DNA of 64,000 nucleotides from Armatimonadota bacterium. Lineage in GTDB: Bacteria > Armatimonadota > Fimbriimonadia > Fimbriimonadales > Fimbriimonadaceae. Within the stretch, counting starts at the first letter, position 1. The number at the start of each line of letters is the position of its first letter. Below the pieces are notes generated by a model. The model was not told the origin of the DNA. It worked only from the letters and a program-made list of their open reading frames with translations, and searched no databases. The stretch covers positions 62,001 through 126,000 of the forward strand of contig JAEURN010000003.1 of the NCBI GenBank assembly GCA_016789105.1, given 5' to 3'. Below, one piece after another: positions 16,862 through 20,281 of the stretch. Position numbers and translations under genes: made by a program.

Positions 16862-16938
16862 GGCGACGTAGCTCAGTTGGTTAGAGCGAACGGTTCATAC
16901 CCGTTAGGTCCCCAGTTCAAGTCTGGGCGTCGCTACCA
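16862..16938 (+). tRNA. tRNA-Met (CAT), elongator type
   Basis: A 77-nt cloverleaf with encoded CCA. The acceptor stem GGCGACG / CGTCGCT closes with one G-U at the first pair. The D-arm is GCTC...GAGC, the anticodon stem-loop AACGG-TTCATAC-CCGTT gives CAT, the T-arm is CCAG-TTCAAGT-CTGG, and the discriminator is A. A true first-pair G-U and the ordinary D-arm favour elongator Met over initiator tRNA, whose first pair is a mismatch. Ile2 (lysidine-modified CAT) cannot be fully excluded from sequence alone. A CATAAT hexamer at 16841-16846 could be its -10 box. Confidence 0.95.
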
Positions 16939-16984: not shown

Positions 16985-17013
16985 TTGGCCAGTGCCCGGA
17001 TTTGCCCTATACT
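16985..17013 (+). promoter_or_regulatory. Sigma70-type promoter for a candidate small RNA
   Basis: TTGGCC (16985-16990), a 17-base spacer and TATACT (17008-17013) form one of the best -35/-10 pairs in the window. No start codon with a usable reading frame follows before the terminator at 17067-17090, so it appears to drive a short non-coding RNA and not a gene. Confidence 0.6.
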
Positions 17014-17016
17014 CTG

Positions 17017-17092
17017 GGGGATCGTTCCTCCAAACCGATCACCCGTACATCAAGTGCCATTCAACACCCCGGCTCCGGCCGGGGTTTTTTGC
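17017..17092 (+). ncRNA. Candidate ~75-nt small RNA with a CCUCC loop
   Basis: Downstream of a 17-bp-spaced promoter, the sequence folds into a 5' hairpin (GGG and GATCG at 17017-17024 pairing with CGATC and CCC at 17036-17044, one bulged A). Its 11-nt loop TTCCTCCAAAC carries an anti-Shine-Dalgarno CCTCC. A single-stranded linker leads to an intrinsic terminator with six Ts. No open frame of useful length is present. The layout fits a trans-acting sRNA that pairs with ribosome-binding sites. It could alternatively be a leader whose gene is lost, or a tRNA-operon terminator with a fortuitous promoter. Confidence 0.5.
17067..17090 (+). terminator. Intrinsic terminator of the candidate sRNA
   Basis: 7-bp perfect GC stem CCCCGGC / GCCGGGG with a TCCG loop, followed directly by TTTTTT (17085-17090). 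The T-run lies only on the plus-strand side, so it terminates rightward transcription. Confidence 0.85.
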
Positions 17093-17182: not shown

Positions 17183-20089
17183 CTACCGGATCGCCACGTC
17201 TTGTTCGAACTTCTTGCCGCCGACTTCCAGCACCAACTTGTAATCTCCCTTGGCCACATATTGAGCCCGGCGGGCCGCGTAGGGGTCGTTGAGTGCGGTT
17301 TTGGGGTCGTTCGGGTCGCCGTTGACGGGCGGGGCCTTCGGGTCGCCCGCTTTAAGCAACAAGTTCACATTCATGAAGTTGTAGCCTTTAACCACATCGA
17401 CCCGTTTGGAAACCACGTCCTTGCCGTCTTTGTCCACCAGCCGCAAAACGCCAGGGCCCGAAACCGTCGTCCACACCTCGGTTGACACCAGTTGATCTTG
17501 GTATGTGTCGTCGGCATACTCCGGCGATCGGCGGTAAGGCCAGCGATCCCGGCCAGAAGGCACGGACAGGTCAAAGGAATGGAATTCCTTCTCCATGATC
17601 TCCTTGGTCAGTTTGTGGATCGGCTTGGTGCTCACCGCCCAGACAGACCGGGCGTGACTGGCCACGACGATCTCTTCGGCCTTGTCTTGGACCGCGATGT
17701 CATGAACGGGGGTATTCGGGATCCCCGACCCGTAGGCCATCCAACTCGACCCTCGATCCAGAGAGACATAGACGCCCATATCCGTGCCCACATAAAGGAC
17801 ATCTTCGTTCCGCGGATCCTCCCGAATCGTGTTCACCGGTTCGAACGGCAGGTTTGCCGCGATGGAGCGCCAGGTATGGCCGTTGTCTTCGCTCACCCAG
17901 ACATAAGGTGTCCATTCATCTTGGCGGTAACCGTTTTGGGTGCAATAGATCCGGTTGTCTTTGTGAACGCTGGCGATCACACGGGTCACCCAGCGATCCG
18001 GGGCCGGAGTTGAGATGTCTTCCCAAGTCAAGCCGGTATCGGGCGTGAACTTCAACGAACCGTCATCCGCGCCGGCATAGATCTTCCCAAACCGGAACGG
18101 GCTCTCGGCGATTGAGGTCAACGTGCTGAATGGCACGTCGCCATTCGGCAGATTTTTCGTCAGGTCGCCGCTGATCGCTTCCCAAGTTTTGCCCTGGTCA
18201 AACGAGCGGTGGAGTCGCTGGCTCCCCACATAGATAATGTCTGGCTGGAACTTGCTGATCAGGATCGGCGCAAGCCAGTTGAACCGGAGCGGGTCTTGGC
18301 CCTGGACATCCCTGGGACGGATTCCCCGGCGTGCCCCGGAAACGAGGTCGAAGAAGTAGAACGCACCGAATTGGCTCGCACCATATCCCGAATCCCCATC
18401 GCCACGGGGGTCGATCGCCACCGCGCTGCCGTCGCCGCCCCCGATGTCCGTCCACGAATCCGGGTCGCTGAAACCAGGTCGATAGCTGCTTGGCCCTTTC
18501 ATCGTCCCGTTGTCTTGCAGGCCGCCAAAAATGTTATAAGGAGTCTTGTTGTCCACGGCAATCGTCGTGAACTGGCCCACCGGGATGTTGTTCCAATGGG
18601 TCCAGGTTTTGGCACCGTCGAAGCTGGCATAGATCCCGCCATCATTGCCGTTGAGCATGAAGTCGGGATTTTCGGGGTCGATCCACAACGCGTGGTGGTC
18701 AACGTGGTTTCGCCTTCCCACTGATTCCCACGAATCGCCGCCATGCGCAGACTTCAGCAAGAGCAGGCCCAAGGTGTAAACCTCCATCGGGTCTTTGGGA
18801 CTCACCACCACTTCGTTCCAGTAGTAGCCCCCATGATCGCCCAGGTCTTGCCGAGTTTCTATCCAATGTTTGCCGGCATCGTCGCTCCGCCACACTTGAG
18901 CCTGGTTCACATCTTGGTCAAAAACGTTGGGATCTCGTTTAAGCATCAAGTCGGCGAGTCCCTCTTTGGAGAGTTCCCCCTGCACCACCGCTTTGGCGAC
19001 GTCATCGGGCTTTGAATCTTGTGGCAAATACGGCCTCAAAAACCGGCTGAGCTCCTTTTCATCCAGCTTGCGGATCGCTTCCGCCGACATCCGGCGGAAC
19101 CGGTTCAAGGTCAAGGTGGCGTCCGGTTGGTATTCGTCCTTGTCGCCTGTGCCTTCATCTCCCCCTTGGTTGTCGATGAAGACATAAACCGTGTCGGGGC
19201 GGCTCGGAGCGACCGCCAACGCCGCCCGGCCCATGGCCTCGCCATTTGGGAGCCCGGCCATCTTGGTCCAGGTCTTTCCGCTATCCGCCGATTTGTAGAC
19301 CGCGCTTCCCGGGCCAGATTCAAGCATGTTCCAAGCGCGGCGGTCGCGTTCCCACATCGAAGCGTAAATCACCCCGTTGCCCCGGGGGTCGAGGACAACA
19401 TCTTTGCAGCCCGTACGGTCATCGCCTTTCAAGATACACGTCCACGATTTTCCGCCGTCGGTAGTTCGGTAAAGCCCGCGTTCCCCTCCTTGGCTGTAAA
19501 GCGGCCCAAGCGCCGCTACGTAAACGGTGTCCGGATTTTTGGGGTCGATGACCACCCGGCCGATGTGGTGGCTCTCGGTGAGGCCGACGTTTTTCCACGA
19601 ATTGCCGCCGTCCCGGCTGACAAAGACCCCGGTGCCCGCATAACTGGTTCGCTGGCTGTTGGCTTCGCCGCTCCCGACCCAAATCGTTTTTCCATCGGGG
19701 CTGATGTCGAAATCGCCGATCCCATAGGCACTCTGGTTGTCAAAGATCGGCGTCCACGATTGCCCGAGGTTCTCGGTTGTCCACAGGCCCCCGGTGGCAA
19801 AGGCGACAAAAATCTTCTTCTTCGCCTTTTGCGCCACCGCGATATCGACCACTCGGCCCCCTTGGACTTCCGGCCCGACGTTGCGCCAGGAGATTTGCTG
19901 GAAAATGGACGACCCCAGCATTTGGACTCGCTGGTCGAATGCGCTCAAGCGAACCGACATTGGCATCGCATGGACATCGGGTTTGTGGAACCGATCCCTT
20001 TCGTCCGTTTTTGGGGGCAAGGGCCGGAATCCCATCGGATCCTGCTGGATATGGTTGAGCGCGATGAAAAACGCGGCGGCAAGAGCCAT
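17183..20089 (-). CDS. Exported VPS10/sortilin-like BNR-repeat beta-propeller protein
   Basis: A 968-residue protein from ATG 20089; a GATAAT hexamer lies seven bases upstream and overlaps the alternative ATG at 20098, which argues against that longer start. An N-terminal hydrophobic stretch (MALAAAFFIALN) suggests export. The body has many Asp-box/BNR-type repeats of the form S-x-D-G-G-x-S-W or S-x-D-x-G-x-T-W (for example SRDGGNSWKN, TTDGGKSWTC, SADSGKTWTK, SEDNGHTWRS, LDRGSSWMA), as in VPS10 and 'photosystem assembly'-like ten-bladed propellers. The last about 150 residues form a distinct beta domain. No sialidase active site is evident, so a binding or scaffold role is more likely than hydrolysis. 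Confidence 0.82.
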   Translation of the reverse strand: MALAAAFFIALNHIQQDPMGFRPLPPKTDERDRFHKPDVHAMPMSVRLSAFDQRVQMLGSSIFQQISWRNVGPEVQGGRVVDIAVAQKAKKKIFVAFATGGLWTTENLGQSWTPIFDNQSAYGIGDFDISPDGKTIWVGSGEANSQRTSYAGTGVFVSRDGGNSWKNVGLTESHHIGRVVIDPKNPDTVYVAALGPLYSQGGERGLYRTTDGGKSWTCILKGDDRTGCKDVVLDPRGNGVIYASMWERDRRAWNMLESGPGSAVYKSADSGKTWTKMAGLPNGEAMGRAALAVAPSRPDTVYVFIDNQGGDEGTGDKDEYQPDATLTLNRFRRMSAEAIRKLDEKELSRFLRPYLPQDSKPDDVAKAVVQGELSKEGLADLMLKRDPNVFDQDVNQAQVWRSDDAGKHWIETRQDLGDHGGYYWNEVVVSPKDPMEVYTLGLLLLKSAHGGDSWESVGRRNHVDHHALWIDPENPDFMLNGNDGGIYASFDGAKTWTHWNNIPVGQFTTIAVDNKTPYNIFGGLQDNGTMKGPSSYRPGFSDPDSWTDIGGGDGSAVAIDPRGDGDSGYGASQFGAFYFFDLVSGARRGIRPRDVQGQDPLRFNWLAPILISKFQPDIIYVGSQRLHRSFDQGKTWEAISGDLTKNLPNGDVPFSTLTSIAESPFRFGKIYAGADDGSLKFTPDTGLTWEDISTPAPDRWVTRVIASVHKDNRIYCTQNGYRQDEWTPYVWVSEDNGHTWRSIAANLPFEPVNTIREDPRNEDVLYVGTDMGVYVSLDRGSSWMAYGSGIPNTPVHDIAVQDKAEEIVVASHARSVWAVSTKPIHKLTKEIMEKEFHSFDLSVPSGRDRWPYRRSPEYADDTYQDQLVSTEVWTTVSGPGVLRLVDKDGKDVVSKRVDVVKGYNFMNVNLLLKAGDPKAPPVNGDPNDPKTALNDPYAARRAQYVAKGDYKLVLEVGGKKFEQDVAIR

Positions 20090-20281
20090 AACGCCCATTA
20101 TCCCACTGGCCGGACTCCGGAATGCAAAGCCGGCGTCCTAGTCAAGCGCAATCATCCTAGTCAACAGCCGACTCGGAGCGATCAGATTTCCGTTGGTTTC
20201 AGTTCAAATTGCCAGCAAAATGGTCAACAGGCCGTCAAGTTTCCCATCGGGACATTCACCGCCGAAACTCAACATGAATTC

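Follow-up and report, generated by a model that had tools for sequence, protein, structure and literature searches.

A probable new small regulatory RNA gene of the genus

Positions 17020-17090(+) of the window, the 64,000-nt stretch of DNA analyzed here (part of contig G000:C3, where G000 denotes this genome), very probably encode, judging from sequence comparison, a new small regulatory RNA (sRNA) of a Fimbriimonadaceae (Armatimonadota) genus. The gene appears to be real at the level of the genus and previously undescribed, and its expression is predicted. The reading we favor, with a probability of about 0.7, is a stand-alone, trans-acting sRNA of the Hfq type, about 71 nt long, whose CCUCC loop would pair with a few G-rich ribosome-binding sites. 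An earlier note on this DNA had proposed an unannotated sRNA gene with its own promoter, terminator and CCUCC loop, and the conservation described below supports that proposal. The parts of the locus and its neighbors are listed in Table 1.

Table 1. Features of the sRNA locus and its neighbors (window coordinates)
Feature	Coordinates	Strand	Evidence and remarks
Elongator tRNA-Met (CAT), upstream neighbor, outside the sRNA	16862..16938	+	ARAGORN; Rfam tRNA 68.3 bits
sRNA promoter, sigma-70-type: -35-like TTGGCC (16985-16990), 17-nt spacer, TATACT (17008-17013)	16985..17013	+	Layout shared by seven genus members, relocated G002 copy included
sRNA gene, about 71 nt, predicted +1 at 17020	17020..17090	+	Covariance model matches in 7/8 genus genomes; spacing calibrated on leaderless genes
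sRNA 5' hairpin, UUCCUCC in loop	17018..17044	+	Folding; GATCGTTCCTC and AAA invariant
sRNA linker, single-stranded	17045..17065	+	Conservation; starts with invariant CGTA, holds invariant TGCCAT
Intrinsic terminator, 8-bp G+C-rich stem (17066-17085), then T run	17066..17090	+	In relatives, both bases of two stem pairs are replaced
VPS10-like gene, neighbor on the other side of the sRNA	17183-20098	-	

The -35/-10 pair with a 17-base spacer, the 5' hairpin with a UUCCUCC loop and the intrinsic terminator, all named in the earlier note, were each found in place. By itself, the promoter does not stand out from chance, with two overlapping hits at a single site against 0.9 expected; what makes it significant is the comparison with relatives, which shows a constant layout together with a conserved RNA body. 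In the homologs, the -35 and -10 elements keep their spacing, and the distance of 6 nt between the -10 element and GATCG does not vary. An A-rich stretch lies immediately 5' of the promoter. By sequence and conservation, the locus has the makeup of a free-standing transcription unit with a promoter and an intrinsic terminator.

The transcription start was placed by calibration on leaderless genes. Among the sampled genes of G000 (loci L217-L236 and the window) and G004 (loci L237-L256), -10 hexamers peak at -12 from the start codon, with 8 of 359 and 8 of 312 genes, respectively, carrying one at that single position, which is a sign of leaderless mRNAs in both genomes. TATACT lies the same 12 nt from G17020, so that the +1 is most likely 17020 rather than 17018, near which the earlier note had placed it, and the RNA would be about 71 nt long. 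In the sampled genes of both genomes, Shine-Dalgarno (SD) 4-mers upstream of start codons are only mildly enriched.

Conservation within the genus

A covariance search of related genomes, the check proposed in the earlier note, matched the sRNA in seven of the eight genus genomes at 62-95 bits, with the CCUCC loop and the stem kept; the eighth genus member, G001, retains only a degenerate remnant. Apart from the hairpin and linker motifs marked as invariant in Table 1, residues of the terminator are also invariant among the homologs. In alignments with four relatives, z scores were 6.7-7.3 for the RNA body and 1.8-3.7 for the promoter, vs 1.0-2.9 for the spacer between the tRNA and the sRNA and -0.9 to 1.7 for the downstream 60 nt; by this measure, the RNA body is conserved, and the spacer and the downstream flank are not. 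When 84,980 species were scanned with a sequence pattern, only this genus gave matches, in six members. The relatives are Fimbriimonadaceae/Armatimonadetes MAGs and the genome Uphvl-Ar1 (CP021423), a genus member from a Microcystis culture, and no match was found in the viral contigs searched for the sRNA.

Folding predicts a 5-bp 5' stem, GAUCG/CGAUC, in G000 and G002, and a 7-bp stem, GAUCGUU/AAUGAUC, with a CCUCCA(AA) loop in most relatives. At the fifth position of this stem, two genomes have a G-C pair and the remaining ones a G-U pair. There is little covariation in the 5' stem, and because GAUC is nearly invariant, constraint on the stem is inseparable from constraint on the sequence. 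The terminator stem varies with pairing kept. The automatic alignment shifts the terminator of G002 and, by one base, the 5' stem of G000, so that pair counts understate the pairing.

Predicted mode of action and candidate targets

We infer that the sRNA is expressed, binds Hfq, pairs with mRNAs and represses them. Transcription from its own promoter would start at G17020 and stop at the intrinsic terminator; the 5' hairpin of the resulting RNA of about 71 nt would display CCUCC in its loop as a seed, and the U-tailed terminator would be the likely Hfq-binding end. Hfq is encoded in all eight genus genomes (about 99-101 bits). The tail of 16S rRNA reads GGATCACCTCC / GGATCACCTCCTTAAA, which confirms CCUCC as the anti-SD core in this organism, and the loop of the sRNA repeats it. 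Partners of the loop could be ribosome-binding sites of the GGAGG(AA) type in a few mRNAs, or another G-rich RNA, and pairing at such sites would block translation initiation.

Sites of this kind are few. The pattern GGAGGN{4,10}ATG is strongly depleted in the window (4 found vs 19.5 expected from dinucleotide shuffles), and only 5 of the 44 long ORFs in the window have an SD-like 4-mer at a start, in agreement with the earlier observation that most genes here have a weak SD or none. Genome-wide, AGGAGGN{4,9}ATG occurs 101 times vs 43 for the reversed pattern. Since strong SDs are rare, broad targeting by the sRNA is unlikely, and the broad pairing to ribosome-binding sites envisaged in the earlier note is not supported, as few mRNAs carry such sites.

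A search of eight genomes with the pattern GGAGGAAC..ATG gave 79 distinct sites, 37 of them ahead of frames of at least 60 aa, with few shared orthologs. The best duplex forms with the leader of a secretin (PilQ-like) gene of the type IV pilus, in a pilMNO-type operon (site at L143:1067-1080, G000:C7:48866; orthologs at L201-L205), where GGAGGAACGAU pairs over 11 bp; in this genome the duplex reaches -20.5 kcal/mol, and none of 383 sampled genes does as well. Six members of the genus retain TGAGGAGGAA in this leader, in a lineage otherwise poor in SDs. The secretin leader is nevertheless a candidate target only: it was preselected by the search itself, ranks only about 24th vs 338 in G004, and has counterparts in outgroup genera that lack the sRNA, which often carry strong GGAGGA-type SDs ahead of the secretin gene. 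A second pilus gene, with a GAGGAAC leader in all six members, was discarded, its duplex ranking 103rd of 383 here, which is not significant. With fliD, a 10-bp pairing is seen only in G003 and G004. For trmFO (25625), one of the targets named in the earlier note, just 2 nt lie between AGGAGG and the ATG, and the gene falls outside the 12 best duplexes of the 383 sampled genes. In the site search of the eight genomes and among the sampled genes, no target with conserved, sRNA-specific complementarity was found, neither trmFO nor the tandem membrane pair that had also been put forward.

The loop might serve something other than mRNA pairing. The 5' end of the sRNA, GGAUCGUUCCUCC, resembles the 3' end of 16S rRNA, GGAUCACCUCC, and the RNA could act as a sponge or a protein-binding decoy, binding a factor that reads the rRNA tail or pairing with another sRNA. 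GATC...CCTCC is common to the invariant core of the sRNA and the 16S tail, the scarcity of strong-SD mRNAs would leave a pure anti-SD regulator with a small regulon, and E. coli is known to have a sponge made from a tRNA trailer, 3'ETS-leuZ (PMC8166272). The string in common is short, however, its spacing differs (GUU vs A), and it is also explained by the self-complementary GATC stem; we consider a sponge or decoy unlikely.

Independence from tRNA-Met

In six genus members, the sRNA lies directly downstream of tRNA-Met, and no strong terminator separates the two, so that the locus could be read as nothing more than the end of the tRNA-Met transcript, a functionless 3' trailer with its terminator. 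Shorter, promoterless forms immediately behind the tRNA in G008, G022 and G092 fit this reading as well. In G002, however, the sRNA resides at another locus (G002:C23) with its own promoter and no tRNA within the 3-kb locus; this copy was recovered with an E value of 3.7e-8 by a profile built without it. Because of the G002 copy, the sRNA is not merely a tRNA terminator. Conservation is, moreover, higher in the loop and linker motifs than in the spacer or the flank, and the promoter spacing is constant. The trailer reading is accordingly quite improbable, and the outcome that the earlier note had named as fatal to its proposal, a loop and stem lacking conservation next to a terminator that simply serves the tRNA, is contradicted by the homologs and the G002 copy. 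In sequence terms, the promoter, the hairpin, the motifs of the linker and the terminator are all conserved, and they do not depend on the tRNA. With its conserved promoter and tRNA-free copy, the sRNA of this genus does not fit the description of a promoterless RNA cut from a tRNA precursor (tRNA 3' external transcribed spacer RNA), whereas the forms in G008, G022 and G092 could qualify as such.

These shorter relatives belong to two other genera (G008 in one; G022 and G092 in the other) and lie directly behind the same tRNA-Met, at about 1501-1575 of loci L049 (G008), L050 (G092) and L052 (G022), with no visible promoter; they consist of UUCC(UCC)..UGCCAU and a terminator. The covariance model built from the genus alone scores them at 22-30 bits, exactly behind tRNA-Met. 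Among the tRNA trailers inspected outside the genus, only these three contain convincing relatives of the sRNA. A faint likeness to the 3' half of the sRNA, GCA-TCATT..terminator, is seen just behind the tRNA in G095 (L097) and behind tRNA-Met on the reverse strand in G029 (L015). The promoterless trailer forms and the promoter-bearing, relocated form represent two states that could link a tRNA trailer and an independent sRNA gene.

A far-reaching variant, which we rate as very improbable, would have the RNA begin as a tRNA-Met trailer, become an independent gene and mimic the 3' tail of 16S rRNA (GAUC...CCUCC), acting on ribosome-binding or ribosome-assembly factors and not on single mRNAs; the setting would be a genome in which leaderless genes occur and strong SD sites are few.

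There is next to no chance that the locus encodes a cis-antisense RNA directed against the VPS10-like 3' UTR: the sRNA lies on the opposite strand, 93 nt past the stop codon of the VPS10-like gene in this genome, but no such gene was found beside the sRNA in the 1.5 kb searched in G002 and G006 or in a shorter flank from G005, and the changing neighbors (the gene beyond the sRNA in G006 is another one) contradict this reading. A small protein gene is equally implausible: mechanically called ORFs overlap the sRNA, but the homologs vary in length (68-81 nt) by loop and linker indels that are not multiples of three, so that no reading frame is conserved and the sRNA would be non-coding, as the earlier note had held.

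Relationship to known regulatory RNAs

No family in Rfam 15 matched the sRNA above its gathering threshold (best score 17.6 bits vs 56 needed), and no sRNA described from Armatimonadota (Armatimonadetes) was found in the open-access literature or the Rfam release searched. A close functional parallel is provided by the alpha-r14 or 'cuckoo' sRNAs, such as NfeR1 of Sinorhizobium, short trans-acting RNAs in which an anti-SD motif in hairpin loops silences mRNAs at the ribosome-binding site (PMC10746234). These alphaproteobacterial RNAs are defined by three hairpins, each with CCUCCUCCC (PMC10746234). The sRNA described here likewise carries an anti-SD motif in a hairpin loop, with silencing predicted, but it has a single hairpin with CCUCC only, is unrelated in sequence and comes from another phylum.

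Like 3'ETS-leuZ, a tRNA 3' trailer RNA (PMC8166272), the sRNA adjoins a tRNA gene, and the promoterless forms of G008, G022 and G092 would be made in the same way; unlike it, the sRNA of this genus is preceded by a promoter and, in G002, stands apart from any tRNA, and of the two only leuZ is known to act as a sponge. With generic Hfq-dependent intergenic sRNAs that end in a Rho-independent terminator, it shares a promoter of its own, a length of about 70 nt, a conserved seed region, a U-tailed terminator and Hfq in the genome; it differs in matching no Rfam 15 family, and its Hfq binding is putative. The sRNA would form a new family within a known class of regulators, in a phylum that has been little studied. 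In a lineage that encodes Hfq, has few strong SDs and contains some leaderless genes, a conserved anti-SD sRNA would help to test if RNAs of this type select the few mRNAs that carry an SD.
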